From Carboxylicivirga sediminis (GTDB lineage Bacteria > Bacteroidota > Bacteroidia > Bacteroidales > Marinilabiliaceae), in NCBI RefSeq assembly GCF_018156225.1, contig NZ_JAGTAR010000007.1, positions 1 through 64,000 of the forward strand: DNA of 64,000 nucleotides, read 5' to 3'. The notes beneath the pieces are model-generated. The model was not told the origin of the DNA, ran no database searches, and saw nothing but the letters and a program-made list of their open reading frames with translations. Positions within the stretch are counted from its first letter, which is position 1. The number at the start of each line of letters is the position of its first letter. The translations under genes and the position numbers were made by a program. Below, piece after piece: positions 1,605 to 22,723 of this stretch.

Positions 1605-2501
1605 TTAATATCTGTGTTCAATTTTTTCATTCAAATAATCCTTTAAAGCTTGTGGGTATATTACTTCGATTTCATCTGGTAATCCCAATACAAAACGACC
1701 AACGCCAATGAAGTTACCTACATCAGTTGTAAGAATGTATTTGTGGTCATCAGATTCTTTGATATACTTTTCGCTTAAAGGAAATTCTTCAATTAGTAGG
1801 TTATAAGCCAACATAGATAGTTTTAATTGTATAGCAATTGGCTCAAAGCTTTGCATCCGAAAAATATCGGTTATGCCTTTATGATGCTTTGGTTTATACT
1901 CCCAACAAGTATCAGTTAGAACCACTTCTTTTATCCGTGCTGTTTTAAAAATCTTATTACTTTGGTCTTCTGTATCATAACACCAAACGCCCATATAATT
2001 CACAGTAAAATCAATAGGCTCAACCAATCTGTCACGGATATTATTGCTATGACCTGATTTGTATTCTTTAAGAACAACTTGCTTTTGTTGCTTTATTGCC
2101 TGAATTATATTGAAAATATTATCGGTTTCTTCTTTTCTTGATATGGCATGAATAACCCGGTCAAAATCATACAGGCTATAAAGCTTCTTTGCAAGCTTAT
2201 CCTTTAATTCCGAACCATCTTCGATAGAATGAATAGCCTTACCCAAAATAAATGCTTCTTCTTCGGTAAAGTGAAGTAACTGACTTATATCTTTTGCAGA
2301 GGATTCTTCTTTATTGATTTTGAAAAAGCCATTTCTATTCTCAATCACAAAACCAACTTGTTTAAATGTATCAAAATAACGATATACCGTTCTTGGAGAA
2401 ACATCAAAGCGTTCAGATATTTCCTGAATGGTTCTGCCATACTTACAATCAAGCATTAACAGAATCTCCAACATTTTTTGAAACTTCGCTTGTTCTGCCA
2501 T
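1605..2501 (-). CDS. WYL-domain transcriptional regulator
   Basis: The 298-residue protein starts with a DeoR-like helix-turn-helix (about residues 8-62; TIQEISERFDVSPRTVYRYF). The middle, about 130-215, fits a WYL sensor domain (VEPIDFTVNYMGVWCYD), and the C-terminal part resembles WYL-associated domains. Such regulators (BrxR and CapW types are studied examples) commonly repress phage-defence genes until a ligand, probably a nucleic-acid product, releases them. It is the last gene of the minus-strand run, 11 bases after the 713-residue gene, so it is probably co-transcribed with the helicase module it may control. The ligand and operators are unknown. Confidence 0.85.
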   Translation of the reverse strand: MAEQAKFQKMLEILLMLDCKYGRTIQEISERFDVSPRTVYRYFDTFKQVGFVIENRNGFFKINKEESSAKDISQLLHFTEEEAFILGKAIHSIEDGSELKDKLAKKLYSLYDFDRVIHAISRKEETDNIFNIIQAIKQQKQVVLKEYKSGHSNNIRDRLVEPIDFTVNYMGVWCYDTEDQSNKIFKTARIKEVVLTDTCWEYKPKHHKGITDIFRMQSFEPIAIQLKLSMLAYNLLIEEFPLSEKYIKESDDHKYILTTDVGNFIGVGRFVLGLPDEIEVIYPQALKDYLNEKIEHRY

Positions 2502-2512
2502 ATATAGTTCTT

Positions 2513-4654
2513 TTAATTACCTTGATGATTTATTACCTTGTTGATTTTAAGATATTCTCTGATATATTTAAATGGAAAAGGTAGAACCGTTAAACCCTCA
2601 TGCTTTACAAAGTCAACGTTCATAGTTTCAATTAGCTCATTGAAAAGTACCGGAGAACCCTCAATAGGCAAAGCTTTTCTGATATTACAATAATTATTGA
2701 AGGATGCTTTTATTCCTTTGCTTTTATCTCCAACAAAGTATTCAACACCTTCGCTATTTGTTCTATGGACAATATCAATATTGGAACTAAAAAGCTCGTA
2801 TTTCTTTTCTTTACCTCGCAGAAAATTTCTTAGAATAATCCCTTTTTCCTCAAGTAAAACCTCATTTAGAAGTTCTTTTGCAAGATTAGGTTTGCTAAAT
2901 TTCAATCCTAGAGCTACTTCACGATTAATGATTGGTTCAGCTAATAAATTTAATTGATTTATAATATCATCAAGTACTTTACTCGATTCAGGTTCGTTTT
3001 TCTTCCACTCGTTAAGTATTTGAATTAGCTCATTTTTATCAAGCTCAAAATCTTCTGTCTCTTTAGCTAAAGCATTACCTACCTTTTTGAATGCCGGAAT
3101 AGCTCTAGTGTTAGTTAAACCAATAAGGTTGATGAATCCATCTTTTGTTTTTATTATTCCTTCCGGAGAGAAGTTTCCTTTTGTGTAAGGAGGTTCAAAA
3201 TACTTTTTATACTGCTCGTATTGAGACGCAACGAAAAGGTCGCTTAAATCCAAAACATCGAATTGAAGATTCCCATCAGGTGAAATTTTCAGAAAACCTA
3301 TCTGCTCAACATCTTTTGTGTCATCTTTCCATCCGAAAATCCAATCATTCTTATAGCCAGCAGACTTCCAATCTGTAATTGAAATTCTGTTGTTTAAAAT
3401 ATCATCCTTAATTACAATTTCTTTGAGAATATTCTTTATTGTTGCAAGAGCCGTGTTATTCTTTTTTTGCAGCCTTTTTTGGGTTTTCTCATCATGCTCA
3501 TTTATTTCCTTTTGTAAATAAAATTCAAATTGATTGGAAAAGTCTTGGAGTGTAATATGATGTGTTGCAATTTTTTTAGAAAAAAATTTGCCTACCGCTA
3601 AATATTGGTCAACATCCCCATCCTGGTTATCTTTATTATTAATCAGCCTAATACATAATTCACCGTCTTTAGGATTACCTTTTGTTTTTATAGTAATTTG
3701 TAACTGTTCTTTAAGAAAAACACTAAACCTTTTGCTAAAATTGCTGGAATCATTATTTAAAACTTCATCAACTAAAACAATTCTTTTTTCCTTAAATAAT
3801 TGGCTTATCCTTTCTTCCTTAAAGGCTGAATTAGTCTGTTTAAACTCAAGCCATTGAGCATTCGTCCATGAATCGAATTTAATATCAATATAATCTTTTA
3901 AATCAGTTGAGATTTTTGATAATAAGTAATGCCATGCACCGGCTTTTGAACTAAGAAATTTATCCCAAGATTTAAAATCAATTAATGGAATAGTATTTTT
4001 TTTAGCTCCTTTAACTTGTCGCATTATAAATACATCTTCATCCTTTTGATTTTCATCAGGGAGTTTCCGTTTTAAAGAGTAGTTTGTACTATTGAAATAA
4101 TAGCGAGGCAATTCGTGATATACTTTCTCTTTAATATTCATCCATTTCCTATTGGTAATAGATGTGAAAGTCGCAACAGAATCTTTTAGTATAAAGTCCT
4201 TTGTTACCTTGAACTGAAGTGTAGGTATTTGCCAAATGGTTTTCCCTTTTTTCTTAAACCAGCTCGGATGAGAATAATAAAACTTTCCTGAGAGGTTGTT
4301 GAAGCTGAATAACTTTGACTTGTTACTTGTAAGACTATTGATTAGAAGTTGAACCAAGTAATGTGGCTCAATTCTTTCAGGAGAGATAATCTCAGCACTT
4401 AATGAATCATGCTCTCTAATAATCTGCTCCACAATATTTACAGCTTCATCCTCAGTTACATTCATCATCGTATAAAACGAAGGTTCGTTTTCGTGAACTA
4501 TTGATTTAACGACTGGCTGTTTGACCAAGGCATCTAAATAAAGAGCGTTCCAATATCTTTTTTCACTGGATTTTATTTTGATGAAACTAAATGAACAATT
4601 TATTGCATCAAAATAAAATTTGACTGTTATTTTATTCGTATCAACTTTATGCAT
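2513..4654 (-). CDS. Large orphan protein of the helicase-nuclease defence module
   Basis: The 713-residue soluble protein has no motif I can assign. It is rich in aromatic and charged residues, begins with a beta-rich stretch (KFYFDAINCSFSFIKIK), has a coiled stretch near residues 380-420, and a central segment (about 480-540) with SPDGNLQFDVLDLSD and TKDGFINLIGL. Its start overlaps the end of the SF2 helicase gene by 8 bases and its end lies 11 bases before the WYL regulator. Strict coupling suggests a partner or specificity subunit of the two helicase-nucleases. I considered Argonaute-like folds but see no convincing catalytic set. Function unknown. Confidence 0.8.
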   Translation of the reverse strand: MHKVDTNKITVKFYFDAINCSFSFIKIKSSEKRYWNALYLDALVKQPVVKSIVHENEPSFYTMMNVTEDEAVNIVEQIIREHDSLSAEIISPERIEPHYLVQLLINSLTSNKSKLFSFNNLSGKFYYSHPSWFKKKGKTIWQIPTLQFKVTKDFILKDSVATFTSITNRKWMNIKEKVYHELPRYYFNSTNYSLKRKLPDENQKDEDVFIMRQVKGAKKNTIPLIDFKSWDKFLSSKAGAWHYLLSKISTDLKDYIDIKFDSWTNAQWLEFKQTNSAFKEERISQLFKEKRIVLVDEVLNNDSSNFSKRFSVFLKEQLQITIKTKGNPKDGELCIRLINNKDNQDGDVDQYLAVGKFFSKKIATHHITLQDFSNQFEFYLQKEINEHDEKTQKRLQKKNNTALATIKNILKEIVIKDDILNNRISITDWKSAGYKNDWIFGWKDDTKDVEQIGFLKISPDGNLQFDVLDLSDLFVASQYEQYKKYFEPPYTKGNFSPEGIIKTKDGFINLIGLTNTRAIPAFKKVGNALAKETEDFELDKNELIQILNEWKKNEPESSKVLDDIINQLNLLAEPIINREVALGLKFSKPNLAKELLNEVLLEEKGIILRNFLRGKEKKYELFSSNIDIVHRTNSEGVEYFVGDKSKGIKASFNNYCNIRKALPIEGSPVLFNELIETMNVDFVKHEGLTVLPFPFKYIREYLKINKVINHQGN

Positions 4655-7600
4655 TTATTACCTTGTTAATGAAGTTAAACGCCTCTAAAATCGGCTCACT
4701 AGATTCCAAATCAAATATTGCAGGAATCTCAATAATCCTATCGTCAATAGACTGCCTGAATACTGGTTTCTTACTCGATGCAATATTTATAATAAGAACT
4801 TTCTCAGCCGCTATTTTTTGCATCTTGTTATTGATATGCTCTAATATCTCATTTCGGTTCTCCCTTTCAAAAGCATCGTTCCATAGCTTAAAATCTATGT
4901 ATATGCCATTCTTTGTTTTAGCATCAAATTGTTCTAATTCCTCTCCATCGAGTTCTTGTAACAAAGCTTTTGGACAGTAGCATTTAATTAAATGCCATCC
5001 GATGACTTCTCCCAAGGCTCCTTTGTAAATATTGTTGTATAACACTGGTGTAAGAATATATTGGCCTTCTTTGAAATTAGTTGCAAAACCTTGTCGTTTA
5101 AACAGCTCAAATAGAGCTTTATTTTCTAAAAAAGACGGGAGGTGGCAATTGAAAGGAGATATATTTGCATTTTCGTCATTTGTAAATACAATATCTACAT
5201 GTTTGTAGTCCTGTTCCTGAGTGTAGTTGATATACTTATAATCACTTGGCAACTCCACATAATAGTCTTTCAACTTTACCGGAACAGCATCCGTTTCGTT
5301 AAATGTCGGGTGGGTTAATACAAAACGTCTAAGCTGCGCCCAACGCTCTTTGCGTTGCTCATTAAAAAGATATTTTAATTGTTGGTGGATATGATTATAA
5401 GCTCTTTGATTATTGTATTCACCTATTCCTTTTAATTCAGAGGTGTAATCTGTTTCATTTAACCCATTGCTGGCTTTCTTTACAAGTCCCTCAAACTCTT
5501 TTGTTAGAAGCTTATTGTGCAAATAGCTTTTTTGCAGATATTGAATATTCTCATCACTACTGTATATGTGAATGAGAGGGTTCTTTTGATTACATCTAGC
5601 CATTCTACCAATAGCCTGATTCAAAATTCGGGTTGCATTGTTTGATACATCAGGAAGACTGTATAGGTTATTCTCCGCTTTATCGAAAAAACCATGAGCC
5701 TTATATTCTGCTCCTGATAGCTTAGTAAATCCCTTTTTTATTTCATGCTTCAATTGCAGGTTACTTACCTGACCTTTTTGAGCAAGTGATTCCAATTGGA
5801 AAATACGTTCAACTACCTCTGTTTCTTTAACTTTTTGATTATTCACATTGACAATAAGGTAAGTTGGCTTGTCTACATAAATGGCATCAAAATCCTTTTC
5901 GTTTTCTTTATTAGCAAAATCATTAATCTTTACAAGGTTAATACCTTTAGGTGCCGGATATTGAAGATTCTGACCAGCCCCAACAGTTCTATATGTAGAA
6001 ATAACGAAAAGCTTAAAACCATTGGTTAGGGTAGATTGTATGTGAGTCTTTTTGCTATCAAAATCTGTACTATCTACAACGAAAATAGCATTTGAGGCAT
6101 CACCTTCTTTGTAATCTTCTTTATTGCCAAATAGTTCAATAATATGTTTTGCATACTCTTCAAACAAATCTATTCTAAAGTCCTTTTTCTTATTATCAGG
6201 CAGAGCCATACCTAGTGCTAAGAAGGATTTTATGTGTTCATTAACAACAAACTCTTTAAAGGCTTTGAAGTACCTAATATACCTGTCTATAACATGTTTT
6301 TTGGAGCTGCCTTTCTTTATTTCATTTAAGTAGTAGTTTGCTAATTCTGTTTCCTGGTCGAAAATATCAAGAAGCTCTTTTTCGTGATTCTTCACACCAA
6401 TAAAATCGACATTAATTTGAACCTGGCTGTATCCTTTAGTATTTGAATTGAATTGATTTTCAATGTCTTTAAGTTCTTCACTTTCCAATTGACGATACTT
6501 AACTCCTAATCGTTTTCTCAGGAAGTTTAAGTCATAATTCCCAACAACAGTTTGACTATCGGCAGTAGCTGAAATAGCTATTACATTGGCTTTATTTGCA
6601 ATGTTTAGCAGAAATTTTTCAGGAGTGTTTTCGTATTGGTACTGATAAATTTTAGACTTTAAATCATGGTCGTCACTATCAAAGAAATCGTAATACCTAA
6701 AGCCATTCATGTAAAAGTTTAAGTCCGCAATTTCTTCCTGGCTTTCAGTTTTAGAGAAATTACCGTCATTACTTAATATGGAATCAATAAGGTAATTTCG
6801 CCATTCAACAGGCAGATTAAACAAGTCTAACGTGGTGTGTAACGCACTTTCAATTGGAAATTCGTCATTATTCGGGCTTTGTTGTTTTTTTAACTGCTGA
6901 TAGTTGGATGCAATAAAAAATATTCCTTTTCGGAAATAGTAAAGGAATCCTTTTAATTGATTTATTAAACCTAAGACATTTCCATTTTCCTCAATTGGTT
7001 CTTTCTGAAAATGAATCTCATTAAGCATCCGTTCATCAGAGAATGATAGCCGTGCATAATTCTTCCCTTCACTTAAAATTGTATGAAACTCATCATCTTG
7101 AAACAGAAAGCTTCTAACTCTGTCTGGATTAACCGTTTTAAATGGTACAGTAATATTAAAGCGGTCATTTATTTTATTTACCTTTTCAGTAAAGGAACTG
7201 AATATATCAGATATTTTGGGGACATTTTTTTTTGCTTCCCTTAGCTTAATCCTGTCGTTTGATTCTTGGACAATATCCGTTGGAACTTGTAATGTTGATA
7301 AGCTTGAATACAGATGGGTAAACAGACCAATTAAATCAACCTTTTTGGAATAGCCATTTTCAATGATTTGATTTAGAATATGTGATTTTGTGGCATCAAA
7401 TTCATCTATAAATACAATTGCATCTTCCGTAATCTTATCATCCCAAAAATAATATGAAGGTCTTACGATAGTAGTGTTCTTTAAAAAGAACTTATCTACA
7501 CTCAAGAAAAAAATGCGCTTTTTTGAAGATAAAATCGGAGGGTAAAGCTCAATTAGCCAGGGGTGGTTTTTCTGTATGTAAGTAATTTTCTTCGATTCCG

Positions 7601-8102
7601 TTAAGTCGGTTTTGATGGCTTTTTTAAACTCATCATTTAACCAATCAGTTATAGCCCTGCGAAACTTAGGTTCATGAGTTTTACGAATGTCATCCTTGGC
7701 TTTCTCAATTAATTGCTTGGTAAACGCATCTTTGTTTTTTTGCTCGTCAAATCCTTGAACTAAAGTAATGCTATTGTGCAAAGCTTTATATTCAGGCATA
7801 TCAGTAATAAAGTGCGGGCAATATGTGTTTAGCAATGTTCCAATTATTGTATCAGCATTGGAATCTAAAGCAATAACATGCTTTTCAAAGTCGTTTCCTT
7901 TGCCAGCAGCTTCAAACTTAGTTTTCAATTCCGGAAGAGGAAGGTTCTTTTTTAAGTTAGTTATGAAGAAAATCTTACGGTTTTCTTTATAGTTCTTTAA
8001 AATGTACTCTAATACGTGGTACGTTTTTCCAATTCCTGTAGGCAATGGAAAAACGAAAAGACCATTCTGATGCTGGCAATATTTTTTTAGTATTTTCTGC
8101 AT
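4647..8102 (-). CDS. SF2 DEAD-like helicase with C-terminal PD-(D/E)xK nuclease domain
   Basis: The 1151-residue protein has a Walker A motif (PTGIGKT, 21-27), a Walker B box (VFIDEFDA, 230-237), a motif III-like AISATAD in the middle and a motif VI-like QAIGRMAR near 860, so it should be an ATP-driven SF2 translocase. The last 120 residues hold a likely nuclease core: E1032 in GALGE, D1060 and the D1070-F-K1072 triad in IYIDFKLW, followed by the strand KVLIINI. It begins 18 bases after the SF1 helicase gene and overlaps the 713-residue gene by 8 bases. The nuclease call is from motif spacing only; the helicase call is firm. Confidence 0.85.
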   Translation of the reverse strand: MQKILKKYCQHQNGLFVFPLPTGIGKTYHVLEYILKNYKENRKIFFITNLKKNLPLPELKTKFEAAGKGNDFEKHVIALDSNADTIIGTLLNTYCPHFITDMPEYKALHNSITLVQGFDEQKNKDAFTKQLIEKAKDDIRKTHEPKFRRAITDWLNDEFKKAIKTDLTESKKITYIQKNHPWLIELYPPILSSKKRIFFLSVDKFFLKNTTIVRPSYYFWDDKITEDAIVFIDEFDATKSHILNQIIENGYSKKVDLIGLFTHLYSSLSTLQVPTDIVQESNDRIKLREAKKNVPKISDIFSSFTEKVNKINDRFNITVPFKTVNPDRVRSFLFQDDEFHTILSEGKNYARLSFSDERMLNEIHFQKEPIEENGNVLGLINQLKGFLYYFRKGIFFIASNYQQLKKQQSPNNDEFPIESALHTTLDLFNLPVEWRNYLIDSILSNDGNFSKTESQEEIADLNFYMNGFRYYDFFDSDDHDLKSKIYQYQYENTPEKFLLNIANKANVIAISATADSQTVVGNYDLNFLRKRLGVKYRQLESEELKDIENQFNSNTKGYSQVQINVDFIGVKNHEKELLDIFDQETELANYYLNEIKKGSSKKHVIDRYIRYFKAFKEFVVNEHIKSFLALGMALPDNKKKDFRIDLFEEYAKHIIELFGNKEDYKEGDASNAIFVVDSTDFDSKKTHIQSTLTNGFKLFVISTYRTVGAGQNLQYPAPKGINLVKINDFANKENEKDFDAIYVDKPTYLIVNVNNQKVKETEVVERIFQLESLAQKGQVSNLQLKHEIKKGFTKLSGAEYKAHGFFDKAENNLYSLPDVSNNATRILNQAIGRMARCNQKNPLIHIYSSDENIQYLQKSYLHNKLLTKEFEGLVKKASNGLNETDYTSELKGIGEYNNQRAYNHIHQQLKYLFNEQRKERWAQLRRFVLTHPTFNETDAVPVKLKDYYVELPSDYKYINYTQEQDYKHVDIVFTNDENANISPFNCHLPSFLENKALFELFKRQGFATNFKEGQYILTPVLYNNIYKGALGEVIGWHLIKCYCPKALLQELDGEELEQFDAKTKNGIYIDFKLWNDAFERENRNEILEHINNKMQKIAAEKVLIINIASSKKPVFRQSIDDRIIEIPAIFDLESSEPILEAFNFINKVINA

Positions 8103-8120
8103 TAGATATTTCTACAAAAG

Positions 8121-11100
8121 TTATTGTAATTCCTTTATAATTCTGTCTATATCATTACTAAGACTTCCGCTCTCATAGGTTGTCAGTAATTTGTTTGGGA
8201 AATGCTTTTTATACCAAAGCTCTTTTTCTTCCCAATGAGCTTTATAATTAGGTAAATCCAATCTACCTACATGCTCCAAATAATATTCTTCCCCAGCAAG
8301 CATTACTGTAAAATCAGGTAAATAAAAAGTACCATCTGTGGCAAAAAGAGGTTTTTCGTACCAGAACGGAATATTCCTTTCAGTAAGCATATTCGCAATT
8401 ATTACCTCTGACTTTGAGCGAACCATGTATTCCGAAAGTGTTTCATGAATTTTCCCTACTTCGTACCAATCATTCATTATTAGCCATTCCTTCGGTAATG
8501 GATTAAACTCGAAAAGGGAAGAATTAATCTTTGATAATTTATTTGCTTCTGGTCTTGTAAGTTGTAGGAATGCTCCAATATCTTGCTCTGCAAAAACAGT
8601 AAGCTTTGTTTTTGCACGAGTAATTGCTGTATAAATTAACTCTTTTGATAGAAGGGCTTTTTTGTTTTTAGGTAATATCAAATATACCTCGTCAAACTCA
8701 CTGCCTTGTGATTTATGCACTGAAATAGCATATGCAAGTTCTAAATTGTTTTCTGGTTTTTCTTCCTTAAGCTCATTCCAATACCCCTTTGTATTTTTAT
8801 ACTTGCCTAGTTTTTTACCAAACGGGATATGAGCATCACGACCTTCAAGATTAACAATAAAATGCTCTAACCTAAAGAAAGGAGCTTTATACCTTGGATT
8901 ATACCAGGTATTTGTAGCTTCATCTTTTATTGCCTTTTTATCGTTATTATGCCAACGAGTAAATCCTAATTCCCCATTGTAAATTTGAATTGGGATAGTA
9001 GCCTTTTCTTTTGTTACATATGCAAGTATGGGGTCAGACTTTGTTCTGTTTCTAAATTGGATAATCTTATCGAATACACTTATACCGTCAACAAACCATT
9101 GCCTTTCAACACAATTCCTATTTAACTTTCTTTGTAAAAATACATTAAGAGCATCTGTGCCAAATAATTCTGAGCGATATGGAGATATTACCTGGAATTT
9201 ATCTGCCTTTTTACCATTAGGGCTATCTGAGTTTTCAAATACTTTATTTAAAAGTTCCCAATATTTTTCTTCATTGTATTCAATACCTGTCTCAAGCTCC
9301 AGGTTTTTTATTAATGTTGAAAATATTAGTTCATTGAGTTCTTCTTCATTATCCCAAAAGTGAACATCAATATCTTTTAGGTCATTATCAAACTCCAACT
9401 CCTGAATTTTCTTTAGCAAATCAGTCCTTTTTGCCTTAACTTCTGCTGTATCTTTTAAATCTTCATCAACACAAACGCTTTGTTTAAAAGTCGAGGCTAA
9501 ATCTAATATTCCAGTTCCCCTACCTTCAAGTTTATTTTCACGTTGACGTAAGTTTTCTTTTAACTCACCTTTATTTTCTTCGGGTAGCCAATCAATAAGG
9601 TCAGAAAATACTTTAGCATAACCAATAGGAGGTAGTTGGTTTGGGTCACCAACAAAAATGATTCTTTGAACAGTATTCCAATTTATAGCCCTAAACATTG
9701 TTGCCATTAGGGATTGATCAATCATAGAAGATTCGTCAATAATAAATATCCTGACATTTTCTTCTTGTTTACCGCCATTTCGCTTATAAGTGAAATTATC
9801 GTTCATCCAGCCTCTTTCAGCTAAGAAAGAGTGAATTGTTTGAGCTGATTTACCAGAACGTTCTCTTAGCCTATCTGCTGCTTTCCCTGTAGGAGCTAAA
9901 AGCAAAAATGATGTTCCAACTCCATGAGCCTTTTCAATACCTGATATAATTGACTTTACTACTGTTGTTTTCCCTGTACCTGCACCACCACTTATTACAC
10001 TCAACCCTTTACCAAATATTTTCTGACACACCTTGGCTTGCGCTGTAACAGCCTCTTTGTAATCATCAGGGTTAAGTTTTGATAGGTTAGAGGATGATAC
10101 ATAAAGGTAATCAAACCAATTCCGCTCGGTAACCGGACTTTTAAATTGAGTAATTTCACGATTCGCTAGTAGACGACAGTTTTCTTCTATCAACCGTTCA
10201 TCTTCAAAGATATTTTTTTGATAAAGGTGTAGATTATCAGACTTGTCTTTACGTTGAAATATGGCATTGTCAAGAACTTCTTTATAAGAGGTAAAGTTCT
10301 TCATTTTAAACTCAAACTGTCGCCATTCACTTAGATGAGAAATGTATTTATTTGTCTTTTGTAAAATTATCTCGGCAGCAGTAAATGTGTGAGGAGCAAT
10401 TCGCTTTAATTGGTCAATACAAAAGGCTCGAAAACGATAGGCTGAACCCTTTGATGTCATTGGCTTCAATCCCAAATCAGGTGAAGGAAGCATGCCGTGG
10501 TCTATTTTGCTTAATGAAATATGGTCATCAACATCATTACCTATATAATTTTCACAAATTAAATATGGGTTATCAACTAATTCTTTAAATGTAAATTCTA
10601 AACCATTATTAGCTCTGTTTACTGAACAGAGTTGACTAATTTGCTTTAAACGTTTCGTTTGTTCAAAGGCAAAACGAGGAAGAATCTGTAATAAGTATTC
10701 AATTTCTTCATCCTCCATTGTTGCAAAGTTATCCTGTACATCTGTTAACCTTTCCGAATCAACAACAACCGAAGGTATTGTTTCTTGTTTTAGTAGTAAA
10801 TCAAGTATTTGCTTGTAGTTTTCTTCCTCTGTATTATTTAAAACCCCCTCTTTGTAATGTGAAACCAATTCTGGTAAATCAAGATAATTTAAAACAGCAG
10901 GTAGCCCAGGGTAACATCCTCTGTTTTTCCAAAGTTCTGCTAAAAGACTTTGAAGCCATTTTCTTCTCAAACTCCAATCTTCAGTTGTATCTTTAATTTC
11001 ATACTCTAAAACATCGACAATTTCTAACGCTCTTTCAACCAGTTCCAAGGCATCATCATCAGAGACATGACGCATTGCGTACTTGAAGTTTCTTGCATTT

Positions 11101-11816
11101 TCTGGATAGAAGGCTATTTTTTCAAGTATTTCAGGATTGTCTTTGTACTTGTGATACGGTATTCTAAATCCCTCTTCTGGATAGTTTGATTGTATTGGAA
11201 CTTGCCAAACATAAGCACCTGCATATCTTTGTTTTTCTTCAACAGTGGTTTTATCGTACATAATTAAATCATGTACCTTTTTAACTCGACCAAAGCCTAC
11301 AATAGTATAGCGTTTTTCATCCTCTACAGATAAGGGATTGCTATAATTAGCATAGTAAAATATTAATGACGAATTCTCTTGAATCTCTTTTATAAATGCC
11401 TTTGCATTAGACATTCGTTTTTCATAATTAAACGTACCATCATCATTTTTATCATCATCATGATACATTTCTTCGTATGACCAAAGGCTAACGGTTGCAG
11501 GAGGTAAAGCCCATTGTTTAGTTTCTTGGTTAGTGTACCAATTAGGCGATTTTGTCTCCGCCTTTACTGTTTCATCTCCAAATGCATTAATACTCCATGA
11601 GCAAGGTGGAATGTACTCTTTCTGAATGCTATTGCAACTACATCCTGCAAATTTTTCAGCCTCTTTAACCTGTTCTGATTTCTTTTCATATAAACCACCA
11701 GGAAAAGAATATTGACCTGTACAATACGTGTTAGACAAAGGGTTACGACAAATTTTGCCATTCCAACCATCTGCATGCCAGGCAAGCCTTGCTGATATAT
11801 GTTTTACCTTGCTCAT
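8121..11816 (-). CDS. SF1 RecD-like helicase with Cys-rich N-terminus and C-terminal nuclease domain
   Basis: The 1231-residue protein has three parts. The N-terminus carries ARLAWHADGWNGKIC and several cysteines (23, 32, 59, 61, 72) that could bind metal. The centre is a RecD/UvrD-type helicase: Walker A GGAGTGKTT (610-618), PTGKAADRLRE (642-652), IIDESSMID (692-700), GDPNQLPP and a C-terminal UvrD-like block (AYAISVHKSQGSEFDEVYL, YTAITRAK). The last 100 residues look like a PD-(D/E)xK-type nuclease (E1137, P1167-D1168, E1181-H1182, as in helicases ending in a 'LEH' nuclease). It starts in an ATGA-type overlap with hsdR, so it is translationally coupled to the restriction subunit. Confidence 0.88.
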   Translation of the reverse strand: MSKVKHISARLAWHADGWNGKICRNPLSNTYCTGQYSFPGGLYEKKSEQVKEAEKFAGCSCNSIQKEYIPPCSWSINAFGDETVKAETKSPNWYTNQETKQWALPPATVSLWSYEEMYHDDDKNDDGTFNYEKRMSNAKAFIKEIQENSSLIFYYANYSNPLSVEDEKRYTIVGFGRVKKVHDLIMYDKTTVEEKQRYAGAYVWQVPIQSNYPEEGFRIPYHKYKDNPEILEKIAFYPENARNFKYAMRHVSDDDALELVERALEIVDVLEYEIKDTTEDWSLRRKWLQSLLAELWKNRGCYPGLPAVLNYLDLPELVSHYKEGVLNNTEEENYKQILDLLLKQETIPSVVVDSERLTDVQDNFATMEDEEIEYLLQILPRFAFEQTKRLKQISQLCSVNRANNGLEFTFKELVDNPYLICENYIGNDVDDHISLSKIDHGMLPSPDLGLKPMTSKGSAYRFRAFCIDQLKRIAPHTFTAAEIILQKTNKYISHLSEWRQFEFKMKNFTSYKEVLDNAIFQRKDKSDNLHLYQKNIFEDERLIEENCRLLANREITQFKSPVTERNWFDYLYVSSSNLSKLNPDDYKEAVTAQAKVCQKIFGKGLSVISGGAGTGKTTVVKSIISGIEKAHGVGTSFLLLAPTGKAADRLRERSGKSAQTIHSFLAERGWMNDNFTYKRNGGKQEENVRIFIIDESSMIDQSLMATMFRAINWNTVQRIIFVGDPNQLPPIGYAKVFSDLIDWLPEENKGELKENLRQRENKLEGRGTGILDLASTFKQSVCVDEDLKDTAEVKAKRTDLLKKIQELEFDNDLKDIDVHFWDNEEELNELIFSTLIKNLELETGIEYNEEKYWELLNKVFENSDSPNGKKADKFQVISPYRSELFGTDALNVFLQRKLNRNCVERQWFVDGISVFDKIIQFRNRTKSDPILAYVTKEKATIPIQIYNGELGFTRWHNNDKKAIKDEATNTWYNPRYKAPFFRLEHFIVNLEGRDAHIPFGKKLGKYKNTKGYWNELKEEKPENNLELAYAISVHKSQGSEFDEVYLILPKNKKALLSKELIYTAITRAKTKLTVFAEQDIGAFLQLTRPEANKLSKINSSLFEFNPLPKEWLIMNDWYEVGKIHETLSEYMVRSKSEVIIANMLTERNIPFWYEKPLFATDGTFYLPDFTVMLAGEEYYLEHVGRLDLPNYKAHWEEKELWYKKHFPNKLLTTYESGSLSNDIDRIIKELQ

Positions 11817-14800
11817 AAAATATATTGTCTGTTCTTTTTATAATTCTCTGCTTGATGGAAAATATCCTGATAAACCTCGTCTCTCTCAACCGGAGGATAA
11901 CCATGTTCATCTAAAAGCATGATTAAACCAACCTTTAACCCAAGTTTAATATCTTCTCTCTTGTTCCAATCAGGATAGTTTGCTTGCTCATCAACCAAAA
12001 CCTTTACTGCTTTGGCAAGTTCTATCATCTTATCATCAGGATATGTAAAATCATATTTTACACATAGCTGAAAAAGAATATCGAAAAAGGCTTTTTCTTC
12101 AAAGTCAATTCCCATTTCTTCTCCGGCAGAAAACTCCTTTTGAACTTCCCAAATCAGGTTGGTTATTTGTTCTGCCATTTCTTCGTACACTTCGCTTTTG
12201 AAAACATCGTTTTCGCTTCGTTCGTTGTAGCGTTCTACCAAAGCTTGCATCTTTCGTGTAAAGTCAATACCTCTTACTTGATTCACTTTCTTTATTTCTC
12301 CAATGGCTTTTGCAAGGAGTTTTTGAAGTAGCTTTATCTTGGTGTTGGGGAGTTTTATTTTATTAATCCTATCAATATAATCTTCATCGAAAATATCCTG
12401 AGTATTATCTTTTTCTTCGCCCATTTTGAATATTTCTTCAACACCATCACTAGCCAAAGCATCTTTAATCATCTCACGAACACGAGCATTCATTTGAGCT
12501 GTGTCCGGAGCATCACCTTTGGTTAGTTTAAATACAATAGAACGAATAGCTAAATAAAAATGCGTGTAATCTCTTTCTTCCTGTGTAAGCTTTTCACTTC
12601 CTGCACAAATATCGTAAGCAGCTTTAAGTCGCTTCACTAAACCCATAAAGCGTTTTTCCTTATCCTTGGTGTGCATAACAAATTCAGTACCTTCATTAAG
12701 GGTGTTAAGTTGTTGTAGTGGACTGCCATTAAAGTATTTGGAACTATCGAATTTATGAAACAGCTTGGCTAATAAATCAAGATGATTGCGAACAACAATC
12801 AATGATTCTCCAATATCTTCAAAATTATCTTCATCGCCTTTGTTATATTTTGCAAGAGCTAGATTCATTTGTTTTTTGATACCGATATAATCGACAACCA
12901 GACCCTTGTTTTTGCCTTCAAATTTCCGGTTTACACGAGAAATGGTTTGAATAAGGTTGTGTTGTTGAATAGGCTTATCAATGTAAATGGTATCAAGGAA
13001 AGGCACATCAAATCCTGTAAGCCACATATCTACAACAATGGCAATTTTAAAATTGGATTTAGAGTTTTTAAACTGACGGTCAAGTTCTTTGCGGTATTCT
13101 TTCGTGCCAAGCAGGTTATAAAGGGTTTCGTTATCATCTTTGCCACGAGTCATAATCATTTTAATACGCTCCATTGGCTTAATTTCTTTCTGCTCTTTTT
13201 CAGAAAGAACAGCACCTTCTTCGGCTACTCTTACTTCATTCCATTCAGGGCGTAGAGCAATTACATTTTTATAAAACTCATAGGCAATTTCACGAGTGCT
13301 GCATACAAACATTGCTTTGCCTTTAATTGAAGCACCTTCTGAAATCCGGTTTTCGTAATGAGTAACGAAATCCTCCGCTAATGCCTTTAAGCGGTCCGGG
13401 TCGCCAATAATCACATTCATATTGGCAACAGCTTTTTTACTTTCCTCTATCTGATAATCATTAGCACCTAATTCGGCAGCTTCTTCGTAGTATTGCTCAA
13501 TCTTCTCTAGCTCGCTGTTATGTAATGCAATTTTTGCAGCTCTACCTTCATAAACAATACGAACTGTAATTTCGTCTTTAACAGATTCTGTCATGGTATA
13601 GGCATCTACCACTTTACCAAAAACATCCAGAGTTGCATCTATTGGTGTGCCTGTAAAACCAACATAGGTAGCATTTGGTAAGGAATCATGCAGGTATTTT
13701 GCAAAGCCATAGGTTTTAGTCACCCCTTTTTCTGTAACACGAACTTTTTGGTCAAGGTTAACCTGACTTCGGTGTGCTTCATCGGAGATACAAATAACAT
13801 TAGTACGCTCAGTTAGAAGTTGCGTATCTTCGGTAAACTTGTGAATGGTGGTAAGAAATACGCCACCGCTTTGTCTGCCTTGTAGCAATTCCCTTAAATG
13901 AGAACGACTTTCTACACTTATAATATTGTTATCGCCAATGAACTTTTTTGCTTCACCAAATGTGTCTGAAAGTTGGTCATCTAAATCAGTACGGTCTGTA
14001 ATCAATACAATGGTAGGACTTTCAAAGTGCTTGCTTTTCATTAATAGGCGAGTGAGGAAAAGCATAGTGTAACTCTTACCGCACCCGGTAGCACCAAAGT
14101 AAGTTCCACCTTTACCATCACCTTTAGGTTGTTGTGCAACTTTAATATTTTCGTAAAGTCGATTGGCTGCATAATACTGCGGGTATCGGCAAACTATCTT
14201 GGCATCTTTTTTAGATGTGTCAGGAAGAAATATGAAATTGCGAATAATGTCACGTAAACGATTTTTATTCAGCATACCTTGTACCATTGTGTACATGCTG
14301 TCTATTCCATCAACATCTTTTGCGAGTCCTGCAATTCTTCGCCATGCATAGAAAAACTCATAAGGAGCGAAAAGGGAACCAGCCTTATTGTTTACACCGT
14401 CTGAAATAACGCAAAAACCATTGTATTTAAAAAGTTCCGGAATATCTCTGCGATAACGAACTGTTAATTGATTGAAAGCATCATGTATCGTTGCTTCTTC
14501 CCGAATAGCCGATTTAAACTCAAATACAACAATCGGTAAACCATTGATATATAAAATTCCATCAGGAATACGCATTTGATTATCTGTACCAGTAATTTCA
14601 AGCTGATTGACGAATTTATACTTGTTAAAATCGGGGGAATATTGCTCTTTAGGTTCAGCAACAATACTATCCAAGTCCTGGCTGTACAACTGAGCTTCCA
14701 AACCATTATAATCAATCAATTCAATATGAATATCCTTTTTACTGCGGTCTTCTCGTTTAAGAATAAAGCCATCAGCCAACCATCGCATAATGGTTTTATT

Positions 14801-15034
14801 GCTTTCATAAAGGTCGCTTGCCGGAAGAGTTTTTAATTGAAGAAGAATAGACTGTGCTTCTGTTTTTGTGAGCTGCTGATTCTCATACCGTGATAAAAGG
14901 TATTGAATTAAATCATATTCAATTATTACATCATCATCGGAACGAGTAAGGGTATTACCCAAGCGGTGTGGATAACCTTCTTGTTCAAGTAGCTCTATAT
15001 AAGCGTGTTCTAATTTTTCTTCTGTAAATTTCAT
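11813..15034 (-). CDS. hsdR: Type I restriction enzyme R subunit (HsdR)
   Basis: The 1073-residue protein has the standard HsdR order. The N-terminal nuclease has PD-ExK residues D158 and E172-F-K174 (RIPDGILY, VVFEFKS). The SF2 translocase follows with Walker A GATGCGKS near 315 and the DEAH-like box ISDEAHRSQ, then the helical C-terminal region that docks to the methylase. It cuts and translocates unmodified DNA together with HsdM and HsdS encoded upstream. It is separated from hsdS by five inserted or accessory genes, and its first 21 codons exist a second time at 18235-18293. Confidence 0.95.
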   Translation of the reverse strand: MKFTEEKLEHAYIELLEQEGYPHRLGNTLTRSDDDVIIEYDLIQYLLSRYENQQLTKTEAQSILLQLKTLPASDLYESNKTIMRWLADGFILKREDRSKKDIHIELIDYNGLEAQLYSQDLDSIVAEPKEQYSPDFNKYKFVNQLEITGTDNQMRIPDGILYINGLPIVVFEFKSAIREEATIHDAFNQLTVRYRRDIPELFKYNGFCVISDGVNNKAGSLFAPYEFFYAWRRIAGLAKDVDGIDSMYTMVQGMLNKNRLRDIIRNFIFLPDTSKKDAKIVCRYPQYYAANRLYENIKVAQQPKGDGKGGTYFGATGCGKSYTMLFLTRLLMKSKHFESPTIVLITDRTDLDDQLSDTFGEAKKFIGDNNIISVESRSHLRELLQGRQSGGVFLTTIHKFTEDTQLLTERTNVICISDEAHRSQVNLDQKVRVTEKGVTKTYGFAKYLHDSLPNATYVGFTGTPIDATLDVFGKVVDAYTMTESVKDEITVRIVYEGRAAKIALHNSELEKIEQYYEEAAELGANDYQIEESKKAVANMNVIIGDPDRLKALAEDFVTHYENRISEGASIKGKAMFVCSTREIAYEFYKNVIALRPEWNEVRVAEEGAVLSEKEQKEIKPMERIKMIMTRGKDDNETLYNLLGTKEYRKELDRQFKNSKSNFKIAIVVDMWLTGFDVPFLDTIYIDKPIQQHNLIQTISRVNRKFEGKNKGLVVDYIGIKKQMNLALAKYNKGDEDNFEDIGESLIVVRNHLDLLAKLFHKFDSSKYFNGSPLQQLNTLNEGTEFVMHTKDKEKRFMGLVKRLKAAYDICAGSEKLTQEERDYTHFYLAIRSIVFKLTKGDAPDTAQMNARVREMIKDALASDGVEEIFKMGEEKDNTQDIFDEDYIDRINKIKLPNTKIKLLQKLLAKAIGEIKKVNQVRGIDFTRKMQALVERYNERSENDVFKSEVYEEMAEQITNLIWEVQKEFSAGEEMGIDFEEKAFFDILFQLCVKYDFTYPDDKMIELAKAVKVLVDEQANYPDWNKREDIKLGLKVGLIMLLDEHGYPPVERDEVYQDIFHQAENYKKNRQYIL

Positions 15035-15080: not shown

Positions 15081-16031
15081 TTAGCTTATATCTTCATGTA
15101 TATCCTTAAAAAACTTTGCCAGAGGGGAATTTATGTACTCTTTTTCTTCATAAGGTTTTCCGAAAATATATTCATAAGCTTCTATTTCATCTTTAAACAG
15201 ATTTGGAAATGCATCCATTAATTCTTTTATGTACCCATCAGAATGTTTACTTTTTTTCTCAAGGATAAAGTTAAGTTCTGTGTGATGCATTGAATATTGT
15301 TGATTCAACCGGAATAAGTCTATATTCTTTTGGATTTTTTTACCGATTTGCGATTGGGGAGAATCGGGTTTAATGATTATATCACTATCAAATCCATCTT
15401 TTAAAGAATTATAACTTTTAGGCAAATATGAAAACTTAGCATGATTATCAAATCCCTCTTTATAAGGGTAAATATATTCCTCCAAATTTGTTGGTTTTTG
15501 ACCTTTTGCCCTTTGATTACATATTAAACATGAAGGAATTAGATTGTAAAAATTAAATCTTAGATATGGATATCTAGATTTTGGTAAAAAATGGTCAAAA
15601 TCAGCACGAGCAAATTTATTTTTATCATTTCCTAATGTTGTAATATAAGTGCGATTACAATATGGGCAGCAATGAATATCTAATTTTTTAATGATTTTAT
15701 AGGCACTCCATTTGTCATAACTTTCATAAAAGAACACGTATTGAAATGCAACCTTAAATGGGGAAGGAGTCTTAGGCTTTGTATTAACAAAGTGATTCTT
15801 TAGAATTGGTCTAAGGTTGTTTTCATGTGATTTTACACACTTCTCAACATCTCCAATAAGAAACTCCTTAAGGTGTTTCTCTAGATATTTTGTTAAATCA
15901 TATCCATTGGTCGTTTTTTGTATATTTAAATTTGCTTCCTCACAAGCAAGTCTATCCAACACTTCATTTTTAACTAAATCATAAAAATCCTGTGCCGTAT
16001 TTTTATGGTTGATATTTGATAAACTAATCAT
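15081..16031 (-). CDS. ptuB: HNH endonuclease, PtuB-like (Septu)
   Basis: The 316-residue protein has a zinc-stabilised HNH core: C122-x2-C125 (CCPYC), D146-H147 (DFDHFLPKSRYP), N163 in YNLIPSC, and C168-x2-C171. This arrangement is typical of the nuclease partner of PtuA ATPases in Septu systems and of the Ec78 retron effector pair. Its start overlaps the ATPase gene by 8 bases, so the two are co-translated. It should act as the DNA-cleaving effector once the ATPase senses phage infection. No reverse transcriptase lies nearby, so a retron is unlikely. Confidence 0.85.
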   Translation of the reverse strand: MISLSNINHKNTAQDFYDLVKNEVLDRLACEEANLNIQKTTNGYDLTKYLEKHLKEFLIGDVEKCVKSHENNLRPILKNHFVNTKPKTPSPFKVAFQYVFFYESYDKWSAYKIIKKLDIHCCPYCNRTYITTLGNDKNKFARADFDHFLPKSRYPYLRFNFYNLIPSCLICNQRAKGQKPTNLEEYIYPYKEGFDNHAKFSYLPKSYNSLKDGFDSDIIIKPDSPQSQIGKKIQKNIDLFRLNQQYSMHHTELNFILEKKSKHSDGYIKELMDAFPNLFKDEIEAYEYIFGKPYEEKEYINSPLAKFFKDIHEDIS

Positions 16032-18162
16032 CTAATTCTCTAAGTTTATTTGCGTAGTACTTTCTTAAAGCTTCTTTATGATTCTTTGCCGTAATATGAT
16101 AAAGCATTTTCAATAACTTCCCCCTAACCATTTCATCACCTATCAGTTCTATTGTATTTTCAATGGCGTTTTTTGCTTCTTTAGCCGATTTCTTTTTTTC
16201 TTCATTACCTGACATTGCCTCATATAACAGGTTAACAATTTTGTCAATTTTTTCTCTTGCAAATTCTCCAATATGTCCACTAGACATAAAAAAGGCATGG
16301 CGAAGCATATCATGGATATTTGCTCCAAATGTTTTTAAGTCACCTAAATATTTATAACTTTTTGAATCAGCTTTACCATCATTACCAATTTCAAGAAATA
16401 AGCATTGAGTTACTAATATATCAGATAGCACAAAGGGAGAATGTGTTGAAAACAAGATATTGAGATTGCTAATTCTGGGTATGTCTAACTGTTTTAAACC
16501 AGAGATTAATTCACTAACGAAATTTTGTTGAAACTCTGGGTGAAAATAAAGTTCAACTTCATCAAAGACGATATTTACATTTTTATATGTTACAGTCTTA
16601 TCCTGTATGGAGGTTCTGTCTGCAATGTCCTTTTCTGTTACAGAGTTCAGATTAATTAAATGATAATAAACTGTTTGTAGTGCATTAATTAGTTGCTGTT
16701 CGCCAGAACTTAGAAATTTAAAATCAGAATCTTCAAAAATAATATTAGGATTATAAAATGCTACAGGCATCATTCTTTCCCTATCCTCATTCGAATTAAG
16801 CCGTTTGGTCAACTCATTTAAAGTTAATTTAAGATTATTATTCTCCCATTTAATACCTTTAGTTTTATCTTCTCTTAAGATATCATATCTAACTATGTTA
16901 ATCGCCTGTCGAAGCTTTGTTGTTATATGGCTACTATCATCTTTTAATTTCCATAGCAATTTTATAAATCTTCGACTTTCTTGGGTACTATAAGCCTCTT
17001 TGGGGGAAATCTCATAATCTCTATAATCATCATAGGTACGAGTTATTTTCAGAACCTTTTTGAAAATATATAGTTTTAATAAATCAATATGTATGATTTT
17101 TTCATTTGAGAACTTTTCGCCTGTAATGCTTTTGTAAATCTTATTAAAAACTTTTTCTTTTAAATCAGCATTATATAAACTAACTAACTTATTATCATAA
17201 GAACGGTCAACATCTTTAACCTTATTCTCATCACATGTAAAAATAATTGCTTTAACCTCTTTTGCTTTTAAAAGTCTTTTTACTTTCATTGACTGGTCAA
17301 GTAAATTCAATAGAATTCTAGTTTGGCAAAGGTGTGTCTCTATGTTAATATCAAATCCACCTGATGTTCTCATTGGATTTATGACCATTGGTGTTTGATA
17401 GCCATCATTCTTGTGAAACAATTCTTCTATCCAAACTCCTATTGTTTCAGAGTTTAAACCATAAGCAGAATAGTTTAATGCGATATTATAAAAGAAGTCA
17501 TTTAATTTAAGTACATCCTCTTTTCCTTCAATATTTGCGAATAGATGAAGTATTTTATAATACCTATCTTGAGAAATATCTTTTGAAACGATTGGTATAT
17601 TATCCAATCGATTATTGTCAATTACTAAACAAAATATTGAATCATCAATAGAATAAAAAAGTTCAATCTTAAAGTTTTTCTCAAAATCTTCAATATCCGC
17701 AATTAGTCGTGTAAATCTTTCTATTTCATTTAATTGCTTTTGCTCTTTCTTTACATCAAGCTCTAATCCTTTTTCAGTTATTTCTTGTTTCCAATCATCA
17801 TACTGTAATTTAAGAGCTTGCCTTTTTGATATACAATCATCTAAATTGTCTAGTTTATTGGTTTTTACTCCAATAAGATACGTAGCAATAAAGAGTAACT
17901 CAATTAATGAACTCTTCCCAACTCCATTTTTGCCAACAAGAGCGGATATATTTATTGATGTTCCATCAATATTATATAAGTCTTCTCCTTCTATATTATT
18001 TGGAACAACATTAATAACTGATGAATGTATATCATTTTCATTATCACGAATAAAAGTATAGTCGTAAAACTTATATATATGTCCAAGTCGTAAAACTTTA
18101 GAAAATTTTTCCGCACACCCAACTAAAGGTCTTATCGCTATTAATTTAAAACCGTTGCTCAT
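16024..18162 (-). CDS. ptuA: ABC-type ATPase, PtuA-like (Septu)
   Basis: The protein (712 residues from the preferred start) has Walker A GKNGVGKSS (about 77-85), a long coiled insert, the signature LSSGEQQ, Walker B VNIVFDEVELYFHPE and the H-loop FSTHSPF, followed by TFGANIHDMLRHAFFMSSG, a block seen in Septu and retron-linked ATPases. The frame is open to an ATG at 18192, but the ATG at 18162 overlaps the stop of the hsdR relic as ATGA, which favours it. It should form the sensing ATPase of the pair with the HNH nuclease downstream. The pair sits as a cassette inside the hsdR 5' end. Confidence 0.85.
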   Translation of the reverse strand: MSNGFKLIAIRPLVGCAEKFSKVLRLGHIYKFYDYTFIRDNENDIHSSVINVVPNNIEGEDLYNIDGTSINISALVGKNGVGKSSLIELLFIATYLIGVKTNKLDNLDDCISKRQALKLQYDDWKQEITEKGLELDVKKEQKQLNEIERFTRLIADIEDFEKNFKIELFYSIDDSIFCLVIDNNRLDNIPIVSKDISQDRYYKILHLFANIEGKEDVLKLNDFFYNIALNYSAYGLNSETIGVWIEELFHKNDGYQTPMVINPMRTSGGFDINIETHLCQTRILLNLLDQSMKVKRLLKAKEVKAIIFTCDENKVKDVDRSYDNKLVSLYNADLKEKVFNKIYKSITGEKFSNEKIIHIDLLKLYIFKKVLKITRTYDDYRDYEISPKEAYSTQESRRFIKLLWKLKDDSSHITTKLRQAINIVRYDILREDKTKGIKWENNNLKLTLNELTKRLNSNEDRERMMPVAFYNPNIIFEDSDFKFLSSGEQQLINALQTVYYHLINLNSVTEKDIADRTSIQDKTVTYKNVNIVFDEVELYFHPEFQQNFVSELISGLKQLDIPRISNLNILFSTHSPFVLSDILVTQCLFLEIGNDGKADSKSYKYLGDLKTFGANIHDMLRHAFFMSSGHIGEFAREKIDKIVNLLYEAMSGNEEKKKSAKEAKNAIENTIELIGDEMVRGKLLKMLYHITAKNHKEALRKYYANKLRELDD

Positions 18163-18293
18163 AATTTTATTAATTCGTTTTGTCTTATACATTTCTCAGA
18201 GTCAAATAAAACACTTTCTAAATTACGAAAACGACCTTCTTGTTTCAGCAACTCTATATAAGCGTATTCTAATTTTTCTTCTGTGAACTTCAT
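18159..18293 (-). pseudogene. hsdR': Relic 5' end of hsdR, possibly a leader peptide for ptuA
   Basis: From an ATG at 18293 the frame reads MKFTEEKLEYAYIELLKQEG, nearly the same as the HsdR N-terminus MKFTEEKLEHAYIELLEQEG. After about 21 codons it diverges and runs 23 more codons to a TGA that overlaps the ptuA start (ATGA). It begins 4 bases after the ParB-like gene, so it marks where hsdR originally started before the Septu-like cassette entered. It may still be translated and couple ribosomes into ptuA. Confidence 0.8.
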
Positions 18294-18297: not shown

Positions 18298-18798
18298 CTA
18301 ATTATCTTTAAATGAAATATCTATGTCTGTATTTATACTTTGCATCTGTTTCTTAAACTCCTTACTTCCATATTGTAAGAATTCATTTACTTCTATTTTA
18401 TCAATATTTGTTTCGAGAAGTTTTGCAATGCAAAGGCGGTGATTACCCTCAGCGATAAAATAGCTGTCGCCACATTTAATCAAAAGAATATTGTCTTGCT
18501 TATTGATATATTCGTTTGCAGAATTTGAATAAAATTGAGGTAAGCGATAAAATCTTTTTAAGTTTTCAAACATTTTTATCCAACTCCCTCCATAGTAATC
18601 GCAATGGGTAGAGCCTATTATTTTATCGGGATTAAAATCATACTCAAAATGAAAGTTTTGAGCATTAACAAACCCTTTCCCTTGAATAAAATCATCTAAT
18701 TCTAAAACTATATCGTTATGCCAGGAGCAATCTCTAAAATCAGGTTTAAAATGTTTTAAAACCTTTATTCTTTCCTCTAAACTATAATCCCTCTTCAT
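18298..18798 (-). CDS. Small ParB/Srx-fold protein
   Basis: The 166-residue protein has the signature of a ParB-like (ParB/sulfiredoxin) fold, GDSYFIAEGNHRLCIAKLL, in its second half; the GNHR block forms the nucleotide or phosphate-binding loop in this family. No helix-turn-helix is obvious, so it is not a classic partition protein. It overlaps the RloC-like gene by 17 bases and precedes the hsdR relic by 4. Position suggests an accessory or control partner of the anticodon-nuclease-like ATPase or of the restriction enzyme. The exact role is unknown. Confidence 0.65.
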   Translation of the reverse strand: MKRDYSLEERIKVLKHFKPDFRDCSWHNDIVLELDDFIQGKGFVNAQNFHFEYDFNPDKIIGSTHCDYYGGSWIKMFENLKRFYRLPQFYSNSANEYINKQDNILLIKCGDSYFIAEGNHRLCIAKLLETNIDKIEVNEFLQYGSKEFKKQMQSINTDIDISFKDN

Positions 18799-21472: not shown

Positions 21473-22723
21473 TTAGTTTTCTATGGTTGCTATTTTGGAA
21501 AGAAGCAAATTTTTCAGTTGTGATAGATTTTGATTTTCTTGGTTCTTATATTCAATTAGTTTTGAAATTCCCATTGTAGTCTTATTAAATATTGATTCCC
21601 ATCCTCTTGGCGGAATTAGAATGCATATTTTTTTTAGTTCAGACAGCTTTATTCCTGAAACAGTTGTTCCTGATGAGCGTCCTTCCAAATCTCTTTTGGC
21701 TAGAGGTGTATTAAGCCACAAATACAAAAACCAACCTGAGATTTTTTCTTTTTTTGTTCTCAATGCAAAGAGCCTTTGACTTAATGCATATTCCGAATTA
21801 ATTGCTAAATAATATGTTTCCCCTAATGGTGCTTCAGATGTCAATAATACATCATCAACTTCAAGTTTTGGGTTCATCCATTCATCAAAATCTATATTGT
21901 TTACGTATGGAATTGTATCATACTTTACTATCTTTCCATTACTAATGTTCATTGCTGAAATAACTGGATACTTATATTCCTTACTAAATTGCTGCAAATC
22001 CATAAGTGATTTACTTTTTCCTCGTTTTGAAATGAAACATTCAATAACTTCATCTAAAGCACTAATTCCACACCCCTCCGGAATCTCCTTCTCCAACTCC
22101 TCATTCCAAACCATTTTACCGCCTGAACTCTTATAAGGCTTTCCTTTCTCATTTGGAAACTCAAAATCAACAAACCATTGCTTGTAAATAGCTTGTGCAG
22201 TTTCTTCTAATTTTTGAATAAGCTGATTGTTTAATGCAATTCGGTTCTTTATTGTGTTGTATTCTTTTACAATTTCGTTTTGCTTGTCAGGAGAGGGTAA
22301 TGGGAATTTCATATTGCAGAAATCTTCCCATTCTAAACTACCGCGAACTCCACCTACAGCATGAAAACAAGCTTCACGGTCAAACTCTGCACGAGAAAAC
22401 CACATCATCAAATAGTCTGGTAAAAGCTCTTTTTCATTTTTAACCTCAAATAGCGGATAGGCTTGTGAAATAATAGCTTCTTCATAATCTTGCAATAAAG
22501 CTACTGGCATTTTCTTGTCTCGCCTTACTTGCATTGTGCTACATGCAAACTGATTTTTGCGTATTATTTTATAGTTACGCATATCTGTTCCAACCGTGTT
22601 GGCAACCGATGGGATAAACTGTTTATTGATGGTTAGCCCTAAAAGGGTATCAATTGCTAAATCTTTGTTACGCTCATCGACAAGTCGTATGTAATCTCCA
22701 ATAGGTTTATAGTTCGATTGCAT
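21473..22723 (-). CDS. hsdS: Type I restriction enzyme specificity subunit (HsdS)
   Basis: The 416-residue protein has two target-recognition regions and two conserved helical regions. The central helical region is visible as LPSPDKQNEIVKEYNTIKNR with the following NQLIQKLEETAQAIYKQWF, and the C-terminal one ends LSQLKNLLLSKIATIEN. It sets the DNA target for methylation and cutting. It overlaps hsdM by 17 bases and is followed 12 bases later by the RloC-like gene. The bipartite target cannot be read from sequence. Confidence 0.92.
   Translation of the reverse strand: MQSNYKPIGDYIRLVDERNKDLAIDTLLGLTINKQFIPSVANTVGTDMRNYKIIRKNQFACSTMQVRRDKKMPVALLQDYEEAIISQAYPLFEVKNEKELLPDYLMMWFSRAEFDREACFHAVGGVRGSLEWEDFCNMKFPLPSPDKQNEIVKEYNTIKNRIALNNQLIQKLEETAQAIYKQWFVDFEFPNEKGKPYKSSGGKMVWNEELEKEIPEGCGISALDEVIECFISKRGKSKSLMDLQQFSKEYKYPVISAMNISNGKIVKYDTIPYVNNIDFDEWMNPKLEVDDVLLTSEAPLGETYYLAINSEYALSQRLFALRTKKEKISGWFLYLWLNTPLAKRDLEGRSSGTTVSGIKLSELKKICILIPPRGWESIFNKTTMGISKLIEYKNQENQNLSQLKNLLLSKIATIEN

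Follow-up and report, generated by a model that had tools for sequence, protein, structure and literature searches.

The stretch analysed here, called the window, is the first 64,000 nucleotides of contig NZ_JAGTAR010000007.1 of Carboxylicivirga sediminis, and near its start four open reading frames (ORFs) of 298, 713, 1151 and 1231 residues follow one another on the minus strand. In the direction of transcription they are predicted to encode PDC-S68 (P0004, 8121..11816), a RecD2-like superfamily 1 (SF1) helicase with a C-terminal nuclease motif; DdmD (P0003, 4647..8102), a superfamily 2 (SF2) helicase with a C-terminal PD-(D/E)xK nuclease; DdmE (P0002, 2513..4654), a long Argonaute-like protein; and a transcriptional regulator with WYL/WCX domains (1605..2501). 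The gene for PDC-S68 starts in a 4-base ATGA overlap with the stop codon of hsdR and is separated from DdmD by 18 bases, DdmD shares its last 8 bases with DdmE, and DdmE is followed after 11 bases by the WYL gene. An earlier sequence-only reading of this DNA gave the same four ORFs, gaps and overlaps, and its view of two helicases from different superfamilies also holds, but its proposal of a new single system does not, since two of the proteins map to DdmDE. It is very likely that the genes form two independent defence units in one operon-like array, namely DdmDE with its WYL regulator and a restriction-linked PDC-S68.

The 1151-residue protein matches the DdmD family of PADLOC at 3.6e-32 and solved DdmD chains in the PDB at 1.1e-53 and 2e-32. 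Residues D233, E234, D236, Q829, G832, R833 and R836 are invariant in all 65 aligned sequences, and K26 is conserved in 64 of them. The C-terminal nuclease is assigned by homology to solved DdmD together with residues E1032, D1060, D1070 and K1072, likewise invariant in 65/65 sequences, so that by sequence comparison the protein is a DdmD with intact active motifs. A search of viral contigs with this protein alone gave no match.

The 713-residue protein had been regarded as an orphan, and it has no family in Pfam or PADLOC at an E-value of 1 or better. A single-sequence search of the PDB however gave DdmE of L. casei at 5.4e-11 and DdmE of V. cholerae at about 1.8e-05, and with a 64-sequence profile (the protein and 63 relatives, with broken, short or near-duplicate DdmE loci excluded) the values are 1.9e-64 and about 4e-39, respectively. 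An AlphaFold2 model made from the same alignment has a predicted local distance difference test score (pLDDT) of 88.2 and a predicted template modelling score (pTM) of 0.88. Its six best PDB matches are all DdmE or DdmDE chains (9ixm, 9iw3, 9bgk, 9ezy, 8u3k and 8u0j, with template modelling (TM) scores of 0.58-0.75) and the next ones are other Argonautes, while the identity to solved DdmE in the fold alignments is only 16-18%. Profile and model thus identify the protein as DdmE, the Argonaute-like partner of DdmD, with the long Argonaute-like fold. The catalytic tetrad of active Argonautes is DEDX. From residue 330 onward the only columns of the alignment with at least 80% D or E are 349, 370, 412, 418 and 700. 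By analogy with its solved relatives the protein is expected to be catalytically inactive.

That the two genes constitute a DdmDE pair follows from the DdmD matches and from the profile and model matches of DdmE. With an alignment of five DdmD sequences, 116 loci were confirmed in genome_contigs (84,980 species) and the best 80 were retained, in stretches averaging 17.8 kb of which some are shortened by contig ends. DdmE is located directly after DdmD in 76 of these 80 loci, and the other four (L036, L048, L065 and L089) stop 79 to 567 bases past DdmD, one of them (L065) with a 185-residue ORF 13 bases after DdmD that is not recognised as DdmE. The family as found in the 80 loci includes cyanobacteria, Clostridia, spirochaetes and archaea. 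A DdmD-like gene with a second gene directly after it is also present on plasmids of Nostoc, Cetobacterium, Persicobacter and Lactobacillus intestinalis; the second gene of the Nostoc plasmid matches the DdmE of the window at 2e-41, and those of the other three, which show no phmmer match to it, are assigned to DdmE by position only. The plasmid stretches examined contain no gene like PDC-S68. The Persicobacter plasmid also carries cas1 and cas2 (L019:8360-21944). The archaeal pairs are found in Methanoculleus, Methanolobus, Methanoperedens (twice) and Methanosarcina (L038, L040, L041, L067, L104), and the main text of a 2026 survey of archaeal defence is without any mention of DdmDE. A single Treponema bryantii genome has three separate DdmDE loci (L061, L073, L074). 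Searches close to the host found little: a DdmE search of 60 close relatives and a DdmD search of 395 genomes of the phylum both returned only the source genome itself, and in the latter, as in our other large genome scans (phylum, order, class and the Argonaute scan below) at most two first-look candidates were scored per genome and misses are possible.

The WYL regulator, named as such already in the sequence-only reading, matches the WYL family of PADLOC at 2.4e-18 and in Pfam HTH_11 (2.2e-07) and WCX (3.6e-05), both over the cut-off, and WYL (0.01) below it. The largest cluster of proteins flanking DdmDE is a WYL-type regulator, found in 7 of 84 other loci (the 80 genome loci and four plasmids); these seven are by title mostly gut Firmicutes and are not independent, and their regulator lies upstream of DdmDE in all cases, whereas in the window it lies downstream. 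Flanking genes were those on the same strand, within 800 bases and of at most 700 residues; 80 of the 90 passing genes were scanned in Pfam, and 7 match WCX and 6 match WYL. The available text of PMC12409362 describes a WYL gene (VC1772) upstream of ddmDE in V. cholerae with a suggested regulatory role. Given the seven loci and VC1772, a WYL gene is a familiar though not constant companion of DdmDE, and the WYL protein of the window probably regulates DdmDE or the island.

The 1231-residue protein matches the PADLOC family PDC-S68 over residues 4-1229, its full length, with 1707.5 bits and an E-value of 0, and by this match it is a member of that catalogued candidate family. Its RecD2-like SF1 core matches TIGR01448 at 3.2e-76, with 257 bits against a curated cut-off of 500 for the RecD2 equivalog. 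The residues E1137, D1168, E1181 and K1198 of the C-terminal nuclease motif are kept in 14/14 members; none of the 25 Pfam families listed for these members is a nuclease family and no PDB match has an E-value better than 0.26, for which reason the nuclease is called at motif level only. The two C-terminal nucleases expected from the sequence-only reading are therefore supported in DdmD by homology and conserved residues, and in PDC-S68 to the level of the motif. A profile comparison between the C-terminal nuclease regions of DdmD and PDC-S68 gave no homology signal. The source of the PDC names is reportedly a preprint on embedded defences by Payne et al., and the name PDC-S68 was not found in the literature searched. 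PMC12988326 describes the PDC families as candidates put forward by guilt by embedding, the majority still to be tested, and PDC-S68 is accordingly a candidate anti-phage defence protein.

Recurrent co-occurrence elsewhere was named beforehand as the support for a single system, and it was not seen: PDC-S68 is absent from the retrieved DNA of all 80 DdmD loci and neither DdmD nor DdmE is present in any of 19 PDC-S68 loci. The sole match to the protein among the DdmD loci (L059) is about 4 kb away and has 94 bits, less than the 201 bits of the weakest PDC-S68 locus counted. Anywhere in 30 whole DdmDE genomes, taken from the 80 loci, PDC-S68 was found in one (1e-80); for comparison it occurs in 8/394 other genomes of the source phylum (1e-100). 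The closest relative of the window DdmDE, on an Aquimarina contig (L032), has 72% DNA identity to the window over 5 kb, and the match extends to window base 8103, which immediately precedes the start codon of DdmD. The 445 bases beyond it, where the end of PDC-S68 would be expected, show no better-than-chance match to PDC-S68 or any other window protein. Since in the direction of the genes the match sets in only at base 8103, DdmDE appears separable from PDC-S68. The Aquimarina copy (L032:446-6908) is degraded: its DdmD is divided between two frames, and a gene read from the sequence as a transposase interrupts its DdmE.

The 19 loci counted are L004-L006, L022-L031, L113-L116, L118 and L197. 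Partial matches (L117 and L119-L193), a locus where only the first 105 residues matched (L195), loci that repeat the window or a counted locus in shorter form (L007-L017 and L112) and loci on the same contigs (L194, L196, L198 and L199) were not counted, and further matches outside the count are a Vibrio fluvialis plasmid (24% identity) and the phage record MT837260.1. A homologue of the window HsdR or HsdM is located nearby in 10 of the 19 loci, compared with 1 of the 80 DdmD loci (1e-5). The Fisher p value of 5.9e-8 is a guide only, since the loci are related by descent, the stretches compared are of unequal length and both queries were taken from the window. Of the ten, one has a weak hsd match about 9 kb off (L114) and one has its hsd genes on the opposite strand (L006). 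In six loci (L022, L028, L031, L115, L116 and L118), as in the window, hsdR or hsdM is directly beside PDC-S68. Pfam and record annotation show an EcoEI-type HsdR near PDC-S68 in L022 and L115, and add a type ISP system 18 bases upstream in L005, an Eco57I methylase in L026 and an N6/N4 methylase in L004, giving a restriction or methyltransferase gene in 12/19 loci when L114 is left out. The PDC-S68 family thus frequently occurs within restriction-modification operons or next to them, and the hint in the sequence-only reading that the SF1 gene is tied to restriction is borne out by the ten loci that have hsd genes, including the one with the weak match. The family is found in 9/395 genomes of the phylum and 3/295 genomes of the order (both at 1e-100 and including the source genome), and in 0/369 genomes of the class of the Methylobacter genome (1e-90).

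Some of the neighbourhoods are of other kinds. In L025:3050-13490 and L114:2896-13714 a HEPN_Swt1/SNF2 helicase, which is DrmD-like by PADLOC in L025 and assigned by Pfam alone in L114, and a TmtA-like Sacsin-domain protein precede PDC-S68, and the PDC-S68 N-termini of these two loci look closely similar. A 1565-residue protein with a C-terminal DarT domain adjoins PDC-S68 on the opposite strand in L027:2600-7979, and the start of the next gene looks macrodomain-like. The operon L030:3475-15054 contains hsdM, hsdS, hsdR, a 732-residue Argonaute (PADLOC pAgo, 1.6e-214) and PDC-S68, so that a second type of Argonaute accompanies hsd genes and PDC-S68 there. A partnership between this Argonaute and PDC-S68 is unsupported, as 15 loci of its relatives, from 12/395 genomes and with up to 1.5 kb of flank, contain none of twelve window proteins; the positive control worked, L201 and L213 are two parts of a single gene and some of the loci end at contig ends.

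Most likely, the DNA that PDC-S68 unwinds and degrades has either been cleaved by the restriction system or escaped it. One possible role, which we hold tentatively, is that of a finishing nuclease that loads at double-strand ends left by HsdR and breaks down the fragments, in place of RecBCD/AddAB or as a backup to them; the RecD2-like motor, the conserved nuclease motif and the location immediately next to hsdR or hsdM in six loci and the window would fit, but PDC-S68 also occurs with systems other than type I, namely the type ISP system of L005 and the SNF2-type helicases with TmtA-like proteins of L025 and L114. It is rather unlikely, though conceivable, that PDC-S68 is instead a modification-dependent (type IV-like) helicase-nuclease, whose N-terminus reads a modified base and which attacks foreign DNA escaping restriction or leaves alone self DNA that carries the mark of the methylase. 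A weak fold hint suggests that the N-terminus, whose domain is otherwise unassigned, may be a base reader of the PUA-like YTH/EVE/ASCH kind. In a profile comparison with EVE, from which L217 was excluded as it has no ORF passing the filter, this region scored 6.8-7.4%, not above the controls, as among nine control regions the C-terminal region of DdmE reached 8.3%, and 40 relatives of the source genome contain no EVE gene. That a YTH/EVE-like reader in this restriction-linked helicase-nuclease senses the adenine methylation by HsdM or a base modification of phages, and so gives type I restriction a modification-dependent second line of defence encoded in the same operon, is doubtful.

Several points weigh against two independent units. 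Contig ends truncate many of the DdmD loci, which limits the absence of PDC-S68 to the DNA retrieved; the Aquimarina contig is the sole sequence-close DdmDE relative available for the junction, reaches 445 bases beyond it and has a degraded copy; and the tight spacing in the window (the 4-base overlap and the 18-base gap) would suit one co-regulated system. A phmmer search with the WYL protein of the window (1e-5) gave no match in the 80 DdmD loci, and the association of WYL genes with DdmDE is therefore drawn from clustering and Pfam. On the side of PDC-S68, seven of the 19 loci have no restriction or methyltransferase gene counted (L023, L025, L027, L029, L113, L114 and L197); these were examined, some of them briefly, with the phmmer test used for the others and, apart from L197, by Pfam scans of a few selected neighbours. 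Joint action of all four proteins, the two helicase-nucleases, DdmE and the WYL protein, as a single integrated new system is nevertheless very improbable, for although the window genes are adjacent and overlapping and L030 likewise joins hsdMSR, an Argonaute and PDC-S68, the families are never together in the loci examined (0/80 and 0/19), the Aquimarina relative is without PDC-S68 in its 445 upstream bases, and the 15 loci of L030-Argonaute relatives have neither PDC-S68 nor another window protein within up to 1.5 kb.

The two units are located at the end of a single-strand array that starts with hsdM at 24275 and ends with the WYL gene, and the defence-island setting given in the sequence-only reading holds. 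All genes of the array are on the minus strand: HsdM (22707..24275; PADLOC MTase_I, 3.2e-146), HsdS (21473..22723; Specificity_I, 7.3e-61), the PrrC-like PDC-S06 embedded after hsdS (18782..21460; PDC-S06, 1016.7 bits; PrrC, 1.5e-10), a gene of 166 residues without PADLOC match at 1e-6 (18298-18798), two genes between hsdS and hsdR encoding the Septu PtuA-like AAA ATPase PDC-M62A (16024..18192; 1.1e-45) and the Septu PtuB-like HNH protein PDC-M62B (15081..16031; 3.9e-64), and HsdR (11813..15034; TIGR00348, 1.9e-139; REase_I, 1309 bits). The PDC-S06 protein is presumably also similar to RloC. From hsdM to WYL the gaps are -17, 12, -17, 105, -8, 46, -4, 18, -8 and 11 bases, so that no gap exceeds 105 bases. 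Scans for σ70 promoters and terminators were no better than chance, and the consensus may not fit the host.

By analogy with the solved homologues, the DdmDE of the window would eliminate plasmids in a DNA-guided manner: DdmE, with a short DNA guide bound, would locate foreign DNA such as an invading plasmid and bring in DdmD, which would load onto the displaced strand, translocate and cut. The overlap of the hsdR stop with the PDC-S68 start suggests translational coupling, and the DdmDE cassette has probably joined the hsd array at its 3' end. A candidate new system is in this way replaced by an annotation that can be tested, a DdmDE pair far in sequence from those of V. cholerae and L. casei, and the remaining interest is in PDC-S68, a predicted helicase-nuclease associated with restriction operons.

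Compared with known systems, the DdmDE of the window shares with those of V. cholerae and L. casei the gene pair, the SF2 helicase and PD-(D/E)xK nuclease of DdmD and the fold of DdmE, and differs from them in its distant sequence and in being appended to a type I hsd array. As in V. cholerae a WYL gene adjoins the operon, but downstream of DdmE and not upstream. PDC-S68 resembles its PADLOC family, an entry without description, over the full length; with RecD2 it has the SF1B motor core in common, from which it is set apart by a score far under the equivalog cut-off and by additional N- and C-terminal regions. Defence genes embedded in type I operons are already known from the available text of two papers, DarTG2 between hsdS and hsdR (PMC12255303) and PrrC in EcoPrrI (PMC12707154), and the window likewise has other defence genes inside and after its hsd genes, but unlike those operons it stacks PDC-S06, PDC-M62, PDC-S68 and DdmDE in one array.
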